A stretch of DNA of 64,000 nt, from contig JAJTUQ010000005.1 in NCBI GenBank assembly GCA_021399445.1, forward strand, positions 2,790,001 to 2,854,000, given 5' to 3'. The position numbers were made by a program, and so were the translations under genes. The notes beneath the pieces are model-generated. The model saw nothing but the letters and a program-made list of their open reading frames with translations. It did not search any database and was not told the DNA's origin. Shown here one piece after another: positions 13,089 through 50,411 of the stretch (positions are counted from its first letter, which is position 1; each line of letters starts with the position of its first letter). The stretch comes from Xylogone sp. PMI_703 (Eukaryota; Ascomycota; Leotiomycetes).

Positions 13089-13198
13089 TTGCTAAGGCAT
13101 CGCACTTTAGATCAACAGATTAACATTACAACAGACAAACATCCTAGATAATATACAAAACTCAAGTAGCATAATTTGCTCAATCAACAGACATCATC

Positions 13199-14815
13199 AT
13201 GCCAAGAATCCGTAGATCTCTTCAGGAAATCCAGGCCAAGTATGACTCGGGAGAGGATAAATCAGAACTGGAAAACCTCGTTAGAGCTTTTCGTGGAATT
13301 CAGGAATTAGATCCATCCAATCCAAATTCATTTTTCACAATCGGTGGCTACCATGGATTGCCATTCCGCGAGGAGCAGCCGGTTGACGATCCTGATGACT
13401 GGTGGGGAGGTTACTGTAACCATGGTAATGTCCTGTTTCCAACCTGGCACCGTGCATATCTCTATAATCTTGAGGAAGCACTTAGAAGCATTCCGGGCTG
13501 TGAAAATGTCACACTTCCATTTTGGGACGAATGTTTGGACTACAAGACCGATACGCCAATCCCATCCATCCTCACTAGCCCAACATTTTCTCTCGATGGA
13601 AACGATTATAATCCTTTCTATTCCTACAAGCTACAAGAGAAACTGGTTCATCAAGTTAAGGGGCAGAACGAACGTTATAGCAAGCCTGTTGGATATGAGA
13701 CAGTACGCTATCCACAATCTGGCTTGGTTGGAAATGATGAAGACAAACATGCTACGGAGATTCACAATGCTACTTATAACGACCCGGTCGCAAATGCACA
13801 GCTTTTGAATGCGAACGTTGCAAACTGGTTGTCAGGCACAGTGGAAATCACGCCTGATGGAGATGACACTCATGATGATAGTCGCATGCCTGATACTTAT
13901 TCTGTCTATAGCAGATTCAAGTTATGTCTTAGGGCACCGGATTATACCATTTTTTCCAATAAGACCTCTCAGGACAACTGGATCAGGGAGAACGGTGGTG
14001 ATCCCGACAAGGATCATTACGTCGTTTGCCTCGAGAGTCCTCACAATGCTATTCATCTCGCCGTGGGTGGGTTCTACCAGAAGGGGCAGTACAATGCTGA
14101 CAATATACCGGGAGCAAATGGAGACATGGGTGATAATGAAACGGCTGGCTTTGACCCGATATTCTACTTCCATCACTGCTTCATTGACTACGTTTTCTGG
14201 ACCTGGCAAAAATACCATGGCTCCACTAAGCTTTTGGTAATCGATCCAAATGCCCCAGGAAGTAAGAGTGGTGAAGCCTTGCCGAATATCCCACTAGGCA
14301 CTCCACTTGATATCAATACTCCCCTCTACCCGTTCAAGAAAGCTGATGGGACTTTGTTTACTTCTGCCGATGTCACGAATATTGCTGAACAGTTGGGTTA
14401 TGAGTATGGTGTTGGATCTCTCGATATTAGATATCCAGAACCATCCTTCGGCACGCCGGACACTGTGTCAATTGTGAAGATAAAGAGGATCCACAATATC
14501 AATCGTGCTCAATATCCCGGTTCGTTCGTTATCAGGACTTTCGCCATCGACTCTTCCGGCAGGAAAGTTGAGATCGGTCGAGATGCAATCTTGAGTCGTT
14601 GGAATACTGCTGGGTGTGCTAACTGCCAAGATAAACTCAATGCTGAGTCGTACGTTCCAATTGATGCTATCATGCTCGGGGCACTACAGGGAAAAGACGG
14701 GGCAAATGCGGATATCCAATACGGGGTGGAAATCCAAACCCACTCAAGGGTGCTGACTGGTGCGCCTGATGCTCCTTTCCTTGGTGAAGAGCCTATCATA
14801 GATGATCTTTTTTGA
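13199..14815 (+). CDS. Tyrosinase (type-3 copper, melB-like, no signal peptide)
   Basis: Intronless 538-residue tyrosinase, oxidising monophenols and o-diphenols to quinones. The CuA site shows His52 in GGYHG, His75 in CNHGN (Cys73-x-His75, the position of the Cys-His thioether) and His84 in TWHRAYL. The CuB site shows His282 and His286 in HNAIH and His~325 in DPIFYFHH. The C-terminal part has a CxxC pair (CANC, near residue 472), the copper-uptake motif known from Aspergillus oryzae melB. As in melB there is no signal peptide, so it should be intracellular. It lies some 25 kb from the peptide-precursor locus and is separated from it by unrelated genes, so a role there is possible but unsupported. 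Melanin formation or phenol oxidation are alternatives. Confidence 0.95.
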   Translation: MPRIRRSLQEIQAKYDSGEDKSELENLVRAFRGIQELDPSNPNSFFTIGGYHGLPFREEQPVDDPDDWWGGYCNHGNVLFPTWHRAYLYNLEEALRSIPGCENVTLPFWDECLDYKTDTPIPSILTSPTFSLDGNDYNPFYSYKLQEKLVHQVKGQNERYSKPVGYETVRYPQSGLVGNDEDKHATEIHNATYNDPVANAQLLNANVANWLSGTVEITPDGDDTHDDSRMPDTYSVYSRFKLCLRAPDYTIFSNKTSQDNWIRENGGDPDKDHYVVCLESPHNAIHLAVGGFYQKGQYNADNIPGANGDMGDNETAGFDPIFYFHHCFIDYVFWTWQKYHGSTKLLVIDPNAPGSKSGEALPNIPLGTPLDINTPLYPFKKADGTLFTSADVTNIAEQLGYEYGVGSLDIRYPEPSFGTPDTVSIVKIKRIHNINRAQYPGSFVIRTFAIDSSGRKVEIGRDAILSRWNTAGCANCQDKLNAESYVPIDAIMLGALQGKDGANADIQYGVEIQTHSRVLTGAPDAPFLGEEPIIDDLF

Positions 14816-37167: not shown

Positions 37168-38659
37168 TTACAACTTAGGCTGTATAGTGACATTGGCACC
37201 TTCAATCCACTCGTGTCTATCGTTCAAATAATTACTCGCTCTAAGGTCGCCTGAACGTGCATGTGCCTCAAAAGTCTCAGCACGAGAAGCTCGACCACAG
37301 AGTCGCCCAAGTTGGCCACTAGCCTCTGATGACTTTACTTCTTGGTACGTCACTGTTCGTAGATATTTACCAACCCATAGTCCGCCAGTATACCGAGCGG
37401 CCTTCCTGGTTGGCAGGACATGGTTGGTGCCAATACACTATCAAATCTATTAAACTCTGAGTCTTGAATGGGGGTTGAAAACTAACCTTGTCGCCATATG
37501 AGACACATGTTTTCTCGCCGAGGAACAGCGCGCCATAGTTCTTCATCTTTACCAGAGCTTCTCTTGGATTCTGAGTTAGAATCTGCACATGCTCGAAAGC
37601 ATACTCATCTGCTAGGGCATAAGCTTCATCCATATTTGAGACTACTATCACTTCTCCAAAGTCATTCCAAGAAGTACTAGCAAGGTCTACAGTTGAAAGT
37701 TTCGAATCTTCCAAAAGATATCTGATATGCTCAATAGTCTTTCTGCCAACAGTCTCCGACGTCGTGATCAAAACTGCCGGAGTGTCTGGACCATGCTCGG
37801 CTTGGGATATAAGGTCCGTAGCACAGGTGAATGGATCAGCATGATTATCTATAAGTATTAGCCATATAACCCGAGAGTGGTATCCATAGCCTACCCGCCA
37901 CAATCAAAACCTCCGTCGGGCCAGCGAAGAGGTCAATCCCAACCTCACCGAAGAGCTGTCTCTTTGCTTCAGCAACATATGCATTACCCGGTCCTGCAAG
38001 GAAATCCACCCGATGGATTGTCTCTGTCCCTACTGCCATTGCAGCTACGGCTTGCACGCCACCGAGAATGAATATCTCATCAGCACCGGCATAATACATA
38101 GCTGCTACAGTAGCATTGGGAATTTTGCCTGCAATTGGAGGCGTGCATGCAATTACATTAGAAACCCCGGCAACTTTGGCCGTGAGAATTGTCATGTGTG
38201 CGGACGCTAACAGAGGATACCGACCACCTGGTATGTAACTTGATATTGCAGATGAATTAATATAGACGACAGGGAAGCAAGAACCTCGGTTAATGCTCAC
38301 CAGCCTACACGATCCACTGGATTATTCTTCTGTCCTAAGAAGACGCCAGGCTGTATCTCAATCTCAAAGTCTTTGATCGAGTTGCGCTGTGCATTGGCAA
38401 ATGCTCGAATATTAGCTTGCACCTCCTTGATATCTTTGATAATCTGCTCTGGAACCGAAGCAATGATGCGTTCAATATCTGCTTGAGAAAGCTTGAAAGA
38501 ATCCGGTGTCCATTTGTCAAACTTCGCCGAATACTCTCTTACAGCAGCATCGCCTTTCGTTCTGATGGACTCGATAACCCCGCTCACCACGGAGGTGACA
38601 TTCGTTTGTGAACTACCGCCGCCGGTAGCACTAGCCTTCGTCTTAAGATATTGAGGCAT
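37168..38659 (-). CDS. Stand-alone histidinol dehydrogenase homologue
   Basis: Single-domain HisD-type protein, 444 residues, four exons: 38659-38301, 38238-37895, 37848-37487 and 37437-37168 (introns 62, 46, 49 bp). All catalytic features of bacterial HisD are present: zinc-ligand Gln and His in SQAEHGPD, the acid-base Glu-His pair in YAFEHVQ, the Asp ligand in SYGDK and the C-terminal His in [27 protein letters not shown] and [15 protein letters not shown] are also typical. Fungal histidine synthesis normally uses the fused HIS4 protein, so this separate copy probably acts in another pathway, perhaps oxidising a different amino alcohol. Bacterial-type stand-alone homologues exist in many ascomycetes; transfer is possible but not shown here. 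Confidence 0.92.
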
Positions 38660-39922
38660 TTGGATATTATGCACTAGGTAACTGAGCCTATAATGATAAT
38701 ACTAGATTTCCTATGAGTACGGCAAGTACAGAAAATTATTTATATCACAGTATGTTTCAATGAGTGAAAACATTAGCTAATCGTGCCCCACTCTCGTGAG
38801 GGGCGACTGTTGGAGAAGCTTGCTGCCGAAATTTTACTCCACGGCAACAAATGCGGAGAATAACCCGCGGTAAACATGTACACAAAAGTAGTATCTAACA
38901 AGGTCCAAAATCTATAAACCCTCAAGAAAGTTTATCAGATAATACTCGTAGTCAAAGCTAGAGCTGTGATGTAATTCTAAGTATATCTAGAATGGAGATA
39001 TTCAATGGATATTGAGTTTATACCGGCTTTCGTATTTTGAACAGGATCATTCTCATAGAAGGTAATAATTTCCTACGCCACACATGAGATGCATCAAGCT
39101 TGAAGTTTCATGAAGATCAATTAAAGGAGACGGGTTTGCAAGATATGTGAAAGGGCGACTCATTTACATTCTATGGGCTGGTTGAATGCTTGATTCTCGC
39201 TGTTCATGTTCAGACGAAGTTATATGAGGATAACTAATGATCCGTTAATTAGATAATTGTTAACATTGTGAATGGATGAATATTATGCACATCGAACTAA
39301 GGTATGTTCTAGTCTACTTGAATTCTATGTATTCTGGTCCTTTAAAATTAGCCTTTCTCTAAACCAAGCGCCATAGAAAATAGGAAAGAAACTCGTACAT
39401 TCATTATACTCTTATATGTATACATTTAGTAGTTCGGCAACAGCCCTTTTATGAAGTCTTGCAGCTGATAGCCTCAATCAATACCTCTCTTCCAAACTCG
39501 AAAAATGCAAGCCTTGTTCCGAAAAGAGCACCAACTGGCTGAGTGCCTTTGACTAAGATCCAGTACTATTCATTCTTAGACCCCAAAATTGCACTACAGT
39601 TCCCTAGTAGATCGAACGCGGCATACTTCATCTTTGATTGGTCATTATTTTAGTAAGCTACAATTAAAAGATGTCTTCTACAACCATTATTTCCCACCAT
39701 TATTACTGTTATATCAGAAAGAAGCCGTATACTTGAAAAAGAAACATATCCATATCTTAGGTAGACCACTCAAGTATAATATCACAGATATAGTGGACAG
39801 TTGGGATTGTTGTGCACCAAGCATCATTTAGAAATATAAGCTATATTGCAAAATAAAGTGTACTACAACACTCCAGATTATCAGAGGCTTTTACAACAAT
39901 GTAGCTAATAGTATTCCACCAT
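38660..39922. other. AT-rich intergenic region
   Basis: 1.26 kb with no recognisable gene. The ORF at 39589-39831 has no recognisable content. Confidence 0.4.
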
Positions 39923-40225
39923 CTAGAAATCCGTATTTCTGAATTGGGGCTCAGCCTCCCGCTTGAAATCAGTATTTCTGAATTGAGCCTCACGCTTGAA
40001 GTCGGTGTTGCGGAATTGGGGCTCGGCCTCACGTTTGAAGTCGGTGTTTCTGAACTGAGGTTCTGCTTCGCGCTTGAAATCAGTGTTTCTGAACTGAGGT
40101 TCGGCTTCACGCTTAAAATCGGTATTTCTGAACTGAGGCTCCGCGTCACGCTTGAAGTTGGTGTTTCTGAATTGAGCCTCACGCTTAAAGTCAGTGTTGC
40201 GGAATTGAGGCTTAGCCTCACGTTT
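39923..40225 (-). repeat. Eight 33- or 39-bp tandem repeats encoding KR-spacer-QFRNTDF
   Basis: Six units are 39 bp and two (units 2 and 7) are 33 bp, the difference being one encoded dipeptide. Units differ mostly at silent positions (Arg AGA/CGC, Asp GAC/GAT, Lys AAA/AAG), so the peptide is better conserved than the DNA. Confidence 0.92.
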
Positions 40226-40388
40226 TGCAGCACTCTGCGTCCTATAGTCAGAATACGGGGGGTTTGAATGGGGGAGAACAGGAATGATCAGGTGTTGTAC
40301 TGACCAAGGCGACTGTATCAGTTGGTGCTGCCAGAATAGCATTGGCAAGCAAGGCTGTTGCCACGATGCCGTACTCGAAAAACTTCAT
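39923..40388 (-). CDS. Secreted Kex2-processed repeat peptide precursor (dikaritin/KEP-like)
   Basis: Two exons, 40388-40305 and 40234-39923, separated by a 70-bp intron (GTCAGT..CTGAC..GCAG), encode 131 residues. Residues 1-20 (MKFFEYGIVATALLANAILA) are a signal peptide. After a short pro-segment (APTDTVALSAA) come eight head-to-tail repeats, each starting with the Kex2 site KR. Spacers are EAKP, EA, DAEP, EAEP, EAEP, EAEP, EA, EAEP, i.e. one or two X-Ala/X-Pro dipeptides of the kind removed by Ste13-type dipeptidyl peptidases. Each spacer is followed by QFRNTDF (repeat 2: QFRNTNF). The last copy ends directly at the stop codon. This architecture is that of fungal KEP/dikaritin RiPP precursors and yeast alpha-factor. 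With UstYa-type genes 3-8 kb away, a cyclic RiPP is the leading idea; a linear secreted peptide is the alternative. Confidence 0.9.
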
Positions 40389-43091: not shown

Positions 43092-43373
43092 ATGCGCTGG
43101 AAATGGCGACACTTCCCCTGCCCTTCCAAAATCACCTGCAATGCCGAAGCAGGGCAGCCTATCATAGCTTCACCAGGCTCTGCTCCTTGGAATCACAGAA
43201 AGAGACATAGTATGATTTTGAAAACCCTTGGGTTACTGTTTTGTACGCTTCTTCTCTTTCTGGTTGGTCTTATCATCCTGAGTTCCACTCAGATTTTCAA
43301 GTTTGGAACGTATGAGAGGACCTTCACTACAGAACTTTGGTATGTCTTTGACAGTGAACCACCGTTTATCTGA
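43092..43373 (+). pseudogene. N-terminal remnant of a UstYa-type (DUF3328) gene
   Basis: 93 codons with a single membrane span (LKTLGLLFCTLLLFLVGLII) followed by FGTYERTFTTEL, which aligns with the YEHGFTSDL segment that follows the span in the intact UstYa gene 1 kb downstream. As in that gene, a GTATGT donor sits directly after the EL codons. No exon with the expected downstream motifs (YxGxPS..AW, HxxHC) could be found before 44.3 kb; the best acceptor leads quickly to a stop. So this looks like a truncated paralogue. The match is short, so confidence is moderate. Confidence 0.45.
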
Positions 43374-44305: not shown

Positions 44306-45343
44306 ATGTCTCATGTCTCATACAATAACAACAATATGGGAGAAGAAGAAAAGGAAAATCTTCTCGGAGCTACTGAGATGGCAATTCACCCGCCAAGCGG
44401 AGACCAAAAGTTCTTGCGTTTCTTTCTCATTATTTCTGTTTCACTTAATATCTTTTTAATAACTTTTGGCCTATTTACCTCTTTGACCTATAGACGAGAA
44501 TCAGATGTTGAGACATCCTACGAACATGGTTTTACTTCAGACTTAGGTACGTACATACAATGCGGCACTTCAATAGTGAGACTTTGTATGAAACTGACCT
44601 TATTTCTGTAGAACCTATCAAAAGTGAAATCGAACTAGTTAAGAAGAAATTCTATGGGGGTGTCGAATTAAATGGCGAAGGTAGCTTCGTTGCAGATGAG
44701 ACGGGACACGAATACGTTGGACCACCCTCACCAGCAGTAGACAAGGCATGGGGGAAGCTCATGGATGGTCAGGCTCCAGAGTATGGTTGAAATGAAGAAT
44801 TCTCACGATCATTTAGGCTTGAATCTCGACTTAGATAAAAGTGAAGCAGACCTGTCCAATTCAACGTTCCAGTGGCCAGATACAGGCCTCTATTTCACCG
44901 GCCTAGAAATGTATCATTCACTCCATTGTTTGGTACACATAGCGTTCTCTCTATCTTACTATTTCAGGGACGTCACAGCTGATAGTACTTACAGAACCGT
45001 CTCCGCCAAGCTCTATACCCCGATTACTATAAAAAAGTCTTCAGCGGGCCCTCAGATCCATCCCGTGAACATCATATAGGTTTGTTTCACGTATATTTCC
45101 GGTACACCCAGTGATCTGTAGCTAATTATGGTAGGCCATTGCATTAACCATATCCGACAGGCAATCCAGTGCCATGCAGATTTGACGCCCATGGAGTGGT
45201 TGCTTGATGGGACAAAAATCATATTAAAAACAGACACTCTCCATACTTGTAGAAATTTCGACAGAATCCATGCTTGGGCAACTTCTCACATGACCGTATT
45301 CGACGAAAGCGTGCTCAATGGAAGCATTACCATTGTGGATTAG
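44306..45343 (+). CDS. UstYa-family (DUF3328) oxidase-like membrane protein
   Basis: UstYa-type proteins install cyclising bonds in fungal ribosomal peptides (ustiloxin, phomopsin, asperipin). The frame looks broken but five exons restore it: 44306-44546, 44612-44767, 44817-44932, 44995-45079 and 45135-45343, total 268 residues. Introns are 49-65 bp. Order: cytoplasmic N-terminus, single span at about 37-59, YEHGFTSDLEP, EYVGPPSPAVDKAWGKL, then the two signature HxxHC motifs HSLHC (166-170) and HIGHC (198-202), with CHADLTPMEWL after them. The joins give textbook family sequence (HCLNRLRQALYPDYY), so the gene appears intact. It lies 3.9 kb from the repeat-peptide precursor, which points to a role in maturing that peptide. 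Confidence 0.92.
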
Positions 45344-47637: not shown

Positions 47638-48270
47638 ATGGCACACTATTCGCCGCTTGAATCGGACGACAAGAGCGAAGATAATCACAAAACCAACCGT
47701 GAATCCAGAAGCTCAAGCTTCATTCGTTCAATCCTGAAAATAATCGTGGTTTGCCTCGCGTTATACGGCTTTATCGACCTCGGAAAGAAGGCCTGGTTGT
47801 CTTTGAATGACCGAAGTTCTTGTTCGTGTGGTCAATCACCTGCTGAAGCAATTACTCGAGGCTGTAAATTCGACCCATATGCAGCTGCTTGGTTACCAGA
47901 TCATTGCCGCGACGATGACCAGATTCGGGAATTTGGAGAGATGGAGGCACTTACGAACAGTTCTTGGAATTTCTACGATAATTCTACTAAGGCCAAACTT
48001 ACAATTGAAGAAGTCTCGATGAGGGCTGGCGTGGTTGGTCGTCATGATGATAGATCTAAGGTTTTAACCACATCAAATTGGCATCATATGCATTGTCTTT
48101 ATGTTTTGCTAAAGTCATTTCGGTCAAAGAGAACAGGATTAGCAATGGAGCCAAGATATGCGAAAGAACATCATGCTACACACTGTGCCAAAAGCATCTA
48201 CGGTTGGATTAGTGCACAACCTGCTGCACATATAGTAGCTAGCGTGTCTGAAATCGATATATATGCATAA
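47638..48270 (+). CDS. UstYa-related single-span protein with two HxxHC motifs
   Basis: Intronless, 210 residues. A polar N-terminus is followed by one span (about 30-48). A Cys-rich segment comes next, CSCGQSPAEAITRGCKFDPYAAAWLPDHC (about 62-90), and two HxxHC motifs follow: HHMHC (149-153) and HATHC (179-183). The paired HxxHC motifs after a single N-terminal span are the signature of UstYa enzymes, but the CxCG..GC.FD..A.WLP..C block is not in classical UstYa. It belongs to a distinct family that I recall as often found beside phomopsin/dikaritin-type genes. It may be a second cyclase/oxidase or partner protein. It lies 7.3 kb from the precursor and 2.3 kb from the UstYa gene, same strand as the latter. 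Confidence 0.8.
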   Translation: MAHYSPLESDDKSEDNHKTNRESRSSSFIRSILKIIVVCLALYGFIDLGKKAWLSLNDRSSCSCGQSPAEAITRGCKFDPYAAAWLPDHCRDDDQIREFGEMEALTNSSWNFYDNSTKAKLTIEEVSMRAGVVGRHDDRSKVLTTSNWHHMHCLYVLLKSFRSKRTGLAMEPRYAKEHHATHCAKSIYGWISAQPAAHIVASVSEIDIYA

Positions 48271-49398: not shown

Positions 49399-50411
49399 AT
49401 GGCAAAGTTCAGCGTGTCATGGAGAAGTATTTCTAGCCTATCCGCGGCTATAATGCTTAAGCTGATTCAAGCTTTACAGGATTTATACCATTTCTTGGGT
49501 ACCACCACGTGCTTATGATATTAGCCTTGATAGGGACGATCTTGTTATGTACTATACTCTTCAGTGCAAAAGCCTTTACCTCCATGTGCTAATACTGTCC
49601 TTACAGCTATCCTAATAGCTGGCTGCACATCTAATGGTCTCAAGAATGTTTATTTGCTCTCATTTCAGTATGCCGATAAGACCCACTCTCCAACCAAACC
49701 GGATCCAGTACAAGTCAATCCAAACATCTCGAGTACATTTAGCGATATTGTGAAAGCTGGTGCAGCATCTTTAGAGATACGCGTGGGGTACTTGGGGTTG
49801 TGTATGAGTCAAGAAGCAGGGGAATGGGTGTGTTCTAGCAGCGCACACTCCTTGGCAAGATTGCTGAAGCCAGAGGATGATCCTCTGAATTTAGTCTGGA
49901 CCGCAGGAAAATTCAAAGACCAAATTGTTTTTGATGGACTACTGTATGTGGCTATATTTATTCTAAGCTATATTTTGAAAAATCCTTCGAGCATGTTCTT
50001 CTTAATTGACACTGATTTAGATTTACCGCGCTTCCTTTGCAGTTTCTTAATATTCTACTACTTATGACTTTCCCTGGCTGGCATGAAGAAGTCTCTGATG
50101 ATGGTAGCGATATGGAAGTGAGACCTTTCCCATCTAGGCCAGTCTCCCAAGCAGCCTTGGGGCTAGCTACCATTGCCGCCGTTTTCGCTTTTATTACAGG
50201 CTTTTTACAACACATAGCTAGCGCAACCGGTTCAACTATGGTGCATTCATTATCATATGGCACGGTGAATGGTCATGTAGGAACCGCAGCAATGATTCTC
50301 GGGTGGGCAGGCATTTTGCTCTATCTTGTAGTTATGGTTGGAATACTCCTGATGATTTTGTCAATTAGGGTACTTGCTGCTATGACAGATACGGGACCGG
50401 AAGAGCCATGA
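49399..50411 (+). CDS. Fig1-domain membrane protein
   Basis: Fig1 proteins are four-span membrane proteins of the low-affinity calcium uptake system used in mating, fusion and polarised growth. Four exons, 49399-49426, 49480-49563, 49607-49947 and 50043-50411 (introns 53, 43, 95 bp), give 273 residues in one frame. Span 1 follows FIPFLGYHHVL. The extracellular loop has the Fig1 hallmark GYLGLCMSQEAGEWVC (family G-[FY]-x-G-[IL]-C..W.C). TFPGWHEE, RPFPSRPVSQAALGLA and HVGTAAMILGW mark spans 2-4. The first exon is short and chosen because it alone gives the right phase at a GTATTT donor; intron 2 is only 43 bp. Convergent with the CorA-like gene. Involvement in the neighbouring peptide locus is not indicated. 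Confidence 0.85.

Follow-up and report, generated by a model that had tools for sequence, protein, structure and literature searches.

Xylogone sp. PMI_703 (Leotiomycetes) has a genome of 50.1 Mb in 25 contigs. The window analysed here is a 64,000-nucleotide stretch of this genome, and its minus strand carries a small gene for a leader followed by eight near-identical heptapeptides. The locus raises the question of which peptide such a precursor would yield, which enzymes would act on it, and what the product would be for.

Structure of the precursor gene

The gene is composed of two exons separated by a phase-0 intron (Table 1). Exon 1 encodes a hydrophobic N-terminal leader, judged by eye to resemble a signal peptide and kept in three paralogues. 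Exon 2 encodes eight units, each consisting of a KR site, a spacer and a core, and the protein ends directly at the last core, with no tail. The repeated Kex2 sites expected of a KEX2-processed repeat protein (KEP) are present, with eight KR sites and eight core copies. A sequence-only reading of this DNA, which did not give the strand, had described eight KR-delimited repeats, seven of QFRNTDF and one of QFRNTNF, and the gene reads the same here. The spacers are, in order, EAKP, EA, DAEP, EAEP, EAEP, EAEP, EA and EAEP, exactly as given there. The 70-bp intron that it proposed is matched by a phase-0 intron at the equal position in two paralogues.

Table 1. Features of the precursor locus and of other repeat precursors in the genome. 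Positions are those of the window unless a C number is given.
Feature	Position	Strand	Remarks
Repeat-peptide precursor gene	40388..39923	−	131 aa; ATG at 40388, stop at 39923
Exon 1, signal-peptide-like leader MKFFEYGIVATALLANAILAAPTDTVAL	40305..40388	−	judged by eye; leader common to two paralogues
Intron	40304-40235	−	70 bp, GTCAGT...GCAG, phase 0
Exon 2	40234-39923	−	stop included
Eight units of KR + X-Ala/X-Pro spacer + core	39926..40222	−	QFRNTDF x7, QFRNTNF x1
Putative remnant of a third UstY gene (first exon)	43092..43337	+	first exon of a C1-cluster UstY gene matched with 44.7% identity (E 3.8e-10)
UstY-1, DUF3328/UstYa family	44306..45343	+	268 aa, five exons, model by eye
UstY-1 exons	44306-44546, 44612-44767, 44817-44932, 44995-45079, 45135-45343	+	
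UstY-2, UstYa-like	47638..48270	+	210 aa, single exon
C3 paralogue	C3:236232-236622		QFSNKDW x6
C1 paralogue	C1:8783333-8783742		QYRNADW x6
C19 precursor	C19:6463496-6463999		YKITVGQ x12; separator QR, not KR; 4.8 kb from UstYa match
C20 precursor	C20:1610558-1610776		KR-DEDGIRAGDF x7; 1.3 kb from UstYa match

The window gene codes for protein, and its cores are under constraint. The codon pattern of QFRNTDF has seven matches in the whole genome, all inside this gene. Among its eight core copies pS is 0.93 and pN is 0.039, the latter raised in part by Arg codon paths; the peptide is thus kept while the DNA drifts. The core copies of the C1 paralogue give a pS of 0.99 and a pN of 0. The six cores of the C3 paralogue are identical at the DNA level and therefore uninformative on pS and pN.

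Tandem Repeats Finder reports three rows in the window. Two correspond to the precursor array (scores 258 and 298), and the third spans 32 bases in units of 10 bases. A simple-repeat artefact was rejected on the synonymous drift among the core copies, and a structural repeat protein on the KR sites and the dipeptide register of the spacers.

UstY genes beside the precursor

The sequence-only reading took the precursor for a lone gene and cited dikaritins as a contrast only. The gene is instead one of three paralogues and adjoins UstY/DUF3328 genes, a setting absent from that reading. The starts of UstY-1 and UstY-2 lie 3.9 and 7.3 kb from the precursor, and both genes are transcribed divergently from it. 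A UstY/DUF3328 gene near a repeat precursor is described as the class-defining context of dikaritins (PMC12048977), and UstY-1 provides it here.

UstY-1 scores 144.8 bits against the Pfam UstYa profile, which has a cut-off of 25, and contains the motifs HSLHC and HIGHC. UstY-2 scores 20.5 bits, under the cut-off. Its motifs, HHMHC and HATHC, are both invariant in four of four aligned sequences, and one aligned relative is an Aspergillus alliaceus protein assigned to PF11807. Both window proteins therefore carry two HxxHC motifs, as looked for in dikaritin UstY proteins. CctR, which acts by C-H hydroxylation, is a copper enzyme that needs the motif pair HxxHC(x)nHxxHC; copper dependence is also described for the cyclase AprY (PMC12435403). 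The AlphaFold model of UstY-2 has a mean pLDDT of 54.9, too poor for testing a copper site; comparison of UstY-1 with solved structures gave a single match at chance level (E 0.14).

UstY genes are also located near each of the C3 and C1 paralogues. The copies of UstY-2 in these clusters are 74% and 69% identical to it, respectively, and also fall under the Pfam cut-off (23.2 and 18.7 bits). The C3 copy of UstY-1 is 80% identical, with a dN/dS of about 0.12. No close copy of UstY-1 matched in the C1 cluster, which has another UstY type. A possible remnant of the first exon of that type lies between the precursor and UstY-1; none of its later exons matched nearby. Across the paralogous clusters the UstY copies give dN/dS values of 0.11–0.15 at dS 1.0–1.6, suggesting old duplicates in which the enzymes were held while the cores changed. 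Transposase-like frames of the Tc5/DDE_1 type (C3:237327-239497) separate the C3 precursor from the UstY-2 copy of its cluster.

Paralogues and other repeat precursors in the genome

A genome protein search with one KREAEP-rich query returned six loci with E values of 10 or less, a list that is not exhaustive. Identity to the window protein is 69% for the C3 precursor and 70% for the C1 precursor. All three have a common leader, with a phase-0 intron right behind it, and all three proteins stop right at the last core. The three-gene core consensus is Q[FY][RS]N[TKA]D[FW].

The spacers are whole numbers of X-Ala/X-Pro dipeptides, as the sequence-only reading had noted for the window gene. The register is kept in all eight window spacers and in six of six in each of the two paralogues, with lengths of 2, 4 or 6 residues, and in none of 20,000 shuffles of residues within spacers. 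The Ste13 signature, X-Ala or X-Pro after each Kex2 site, is therefore found in 20 of 20 cases across the family. The first cleavage site is QR in the C3 paralogue and ER in the C1 paralogue, not KR, a small point that would speak against strict dibasic cleavage in these two proteins.

Cores that vary at random between constant spacers had been named in advance as a pattern that would count against a peptide precursor. The paralogues show the opposite. Their cores retain Q1, N4 and D6 (with N in place of D6 in a single copy of the window gene) and have aromatic residues at positions 2 and 7, and their spacers vary in length by whole dipeptides.

The C19 precursor has a different core type, and 11 of its 11 spacers are also whole X-Ala/X-Pro dipeptides. 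The spacers of the C20 precursor lack Ste13-type dipeptides. The sixth locus (C12:2949515, E 0.176) was excluded, as its sequence has neither a leader nor KR repeats.

The five precursors from this one query were placed against the UstYa matches of the genome, which number at least 108 at exon level and fall into 57 loci by a 6-kb rule; UstY-2-like proteins under the Pfam cut-off would enlarge this already large set of DUF3328 genes. Each of the five has a UstYa match within 5 kb, the nearest being 1.3–4.8 kb away. The baseline for this count is the 1.3% of the genome that lies equally close to such a match. Three of the five loci are duplicates, leaving about three independent cases. The orientation to the nearest UstYa match is divergent in each of the five. 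At C19, weaker UstY-2-like frames (22–26% identity) are found on both sides, one of them nearer and on the strand of the precursor.

Relatives in other fungi

With the window protein as query, a protein search yielded a single match, P0001, with QHRTTGGG repeats and the spacers DP (once) and EAEP (four times). A three-sequence profile, scored against only the 7993 candidates with the most shared words, gave at least 22 proteins at E up to 1. The best profile match, P0006, contains four copies of YRNKDW and one of YRNQDW, and judged by these repeats it is an independent sign of core conservation. Its spacers are EAKA, TPEAEV, TAEAEV, EAEPV and TAEAEV. Four of the five end in Val, so that X-Ala/X-Pro trimming would give no single uniform peptide. 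This counts against a general rule of Ste13 trimming across the wider family. The earlier claim of a Kex2-type repeat precursor with Ste13-fitting spacers thus stands for the spacers of the three Xylogone genes, but as a uniform rule it is weakened by P0006 and by the first sites of the C3 and C1 paralogues.

Among the profile matches listed, DW precedes a KR/RR site or the protein end in 13 of 22, and the organisms named (Pleurotus, Sanghuangporus, Termitomyces, Panaeolus) are all mushroom-forming. None of the three Xylogone precursors is among the matches listed in either search. A protein search for UstY-2 relatives returned two UstY-2 proteins of Xylogone sp. PMI_703, and the three precursors therefore probably lack annotation.

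Comparison with known peptide systems

The dikaritins (ustiloxin, phomopsin, asperipin-2a, victorin and epichloecyclin) resemble the window locus in having a Kex2-site repeat precursor near UstY/DUF3328 genes. The window precursor differs from them in its Ste13-type spacers and its Tyr-less core, and no tyrosinase gene was recognised within 25 kb of it. Passages of Le Marquer et al. (PMC6339444) describe the Ste13 signature as absent from ascomycete cyclic-peptide precursors, ustiloxin/phomopsin and epichloecyclin. Tyr, which is cyclised in ustiloxin, phomopsin and asperipin (PMC7329392), is common in dikaritin cores, not universal, and does not occur in QFRNTDF. Among KEPs with DUF3328 neighbours, 65.6% of repeats contain Tyr (PMC7329392); about a third do not, and a Tyr-less core is thus not unprecedented.

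Basidiomycota KEPs with a Ste13 signature and cores ending in -DW or -W share with the window precursor the order of KR, X-Ala/X-Pro spacer and short aromatic-ended core. The window precursor differs in being ascomycete, and the mushroom peptides are reported as linear. The peptides nearest in core were seen by mass spectrometry, in mushrooms and in linear form, and expression of Coprinopsis KEP 490115 in Pichia yielded, by Ste13-type trimming, the Q-initial heptapeptide QYKAPSW together with its pyroglutamate form (PMC9769878). By analogy, KEP 490115 would be a close precedent for the trimming of the window precursor.

Ascomycete alpha-pheromone precursors are similar in their signal-peptide-like leader, KR sites, Ste13 dipeptides and repeated core. 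The window family differs from them in its lack of cysteines, an unrelated core, its UstY neighbours and paralogues with differing cores. In the survey of Umemura (PMC7329392), DUF3328 neighbours are given for 22% of 7878 KEPs and for 3 of 216 fungal-pheromone KEPs. They are also given there for 17 of 76 homologues of six putative basidiomycete pheromones, so that at the level of counts the combination is not without precedent.

A letter search of the open-licence PMC literature for the window core or the paralogue cores found no fungal paper, in line with the earlier statement that QFRNTDF is not known to match dikaritin cores or ascomycete alpha-pheromones; the supplements of PMC6339444 and PMC7329392 lie outside this scope and may list the core. 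The main text of PMC7329392 makes no mention of Xylogone. Among the papers listed by a concept search, STE13 occurs together with DUF3328 only in PMC7329392, with UstY in PMC6339444 and with dikaritin in PMC9769878; no description of a Ste13 signature together with DUF3328 for a named ascomycete gene was found in the portions available from this literature. The Ste13 and cyclic-peptide (UstY) signatures meet here in one gene family, and again in the C19 precursor of the same genome. In Umemura's proposal, linear peptides such as mating factors gave rise to the modified cyclic ones (PMC7329392), and mixed genes like the window family are what this linear-to-cyclic idea predicts.

Proposed maturation and alternative readings

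The reading we prefer, and regard as fairly probable from the gene sequences and their setting, is that the eight-heptapeptide precursor would be processed by Kex2/Kex1 and Ste13-type trimming and then oxidised by UstY enzymes, giving a dikaritin-like peptide. The precursor would enter the secretory path, Kex2/Kex1 would cut at KR, and a Ste13-type aminopeptidase would strip the X-Ala/X-Pro spacers to leave QFRNTDF. The genome contains a single DPPIV_N gene and a single gene with a kexin P-domain. The N-terminal Gln may convert to pyroglutamate. The heptapeptide would then likely be oxidised, and probably cross-linked, by the UstY copper enzymes. The aromatic positions 2 and 7 are conserved candidates for UstY action, and a bond might join them, as Phe/Phe here and as Phe/Trp and Tyr/Trp in the paralogues; which residues are touched is a guess. 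Points against this reading are the sub-cut-off scores of UstY-2 and its copies, the absence of Tyr from the core, the duplicate origin of three of the five UstY-associated loci, the spacers of P0006, the link drawn by Le Marquer et al. between Ste13 signatures and hormones, and the linear form of the mushroom peptides with the nearest cores.

A broader proposal is more tentative, and we put its chances somewhat below even. The pheromone route (Kex2-Kex1-Ste13) would be joined to UstY binuclear copper oxidases in a Tyr-independent dikaritin subclass, (pyro)Q-Ar-x-N-x-D-Ar bridged at its aromatic ends, that diversified within this lineage of Leotiomycetes into a small set of paralogues. With three naturally occurring cores, two of them Tyr-less, and matched UstY genes for each, the family lends itself to testing what the copper enzymes accept. 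As to role, the differing cores of the paralogues lead us to favour a metabolite acting on other organisms rather than a mating signal.

The most serious alternative, in our judgement an unlikely one, is a linear, hormone-like (pyro)QFRNTDF freed by Kex2 and a Ste13-type enzyme, with UstY serving another substrate or being a mere neighbour. The perfect Ste13 register agrees with it, and Le Marquer et al. interpreted Ste13 signatures as indicative of hormones (PMC6339444). The DW ending shared by 13 of the 22 profile matches listed, four of them from named mushroom-forming fungi, also fits, as mushroom KEP peptides of this shape were detected in linear form, some as pyroglutamate (PMC9769878). 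Against a mere neighbour stand the UstY genes beside all five repeat precursors, and the copies of UstY-1 and UstY-2 held with the precursor in the duplicated clusters.

Improbable is a reading in which the spacers would escape Ste13 and serve as a recognition sequence for UstY on the uncut precursor, so that mature peptides retain part of the spacer. P0006, which keeps YRN[KQ]DW beside mostly Val-ended spacers, is consistent with this, as are the known dikaritins, in which cleavage by Kex2 is followed by peptidases encoded in the respective cluster (PMC9233826). However, no peptidase gene was recognised adjoining the precursor, and a fixed recognition site would not need lengths of 2, 4 or 6 residues within one protein.

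That the gene encodes the alpha mating pheromone of Xylogone sp. PMI_703 is very improbable, despite the similar precursor architecture and a Fig1-family gene 9 kb away. The pattern CxxPGQxC has 14 matches in the genome, all far apart, against five for the reversed pattern; none of the six inspected looks like a KR-flanked precursor, so that no canonical pheromone precursor was recognised among these. However, Leotiomycete pheromones carry two conserved cysteines according to the relevant passages of PMC6339444 and QFRNTDF has none, the three paralogues have differing cores, and in the counts of PMC7329392 pheromone genes hardly ever have UstY neighbours. That the locus is a remnant, decaying or silent and without product, as the possible truncated third UstY exon and the one altered copy (QFRNTNF) might suggest, is scarcely credible against an open precursor frame with cores near-invariant despite synonymous drift, and open UstY-1 and UstY-2 frames with constrained copies.

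Other genes around the precursor

Between 39 and 49 kb, open reading frames of at least 120 aa comprise those over the precursor, one at 43.0 kb and UstY-2, in a scan that may miss small or multi-exon genes. A tyrosinase frame of 546 aa (13175-14815, plus strand) lies about 25 kb off, and a role in the precursor cluster seems unlikely. A histidinol-dehydrogenase-like gene in three frames (37367-38701, minus strand) is situated 1.2 kb past the 3′ end of the precursor, on the same strand. Just past UstY-2, a gene for a Fig1-family membrane protein (49534-50411, plus strand) matches in two frames with 63 and 88.6 bits; Fig1 is a mating-response protein of yeast.
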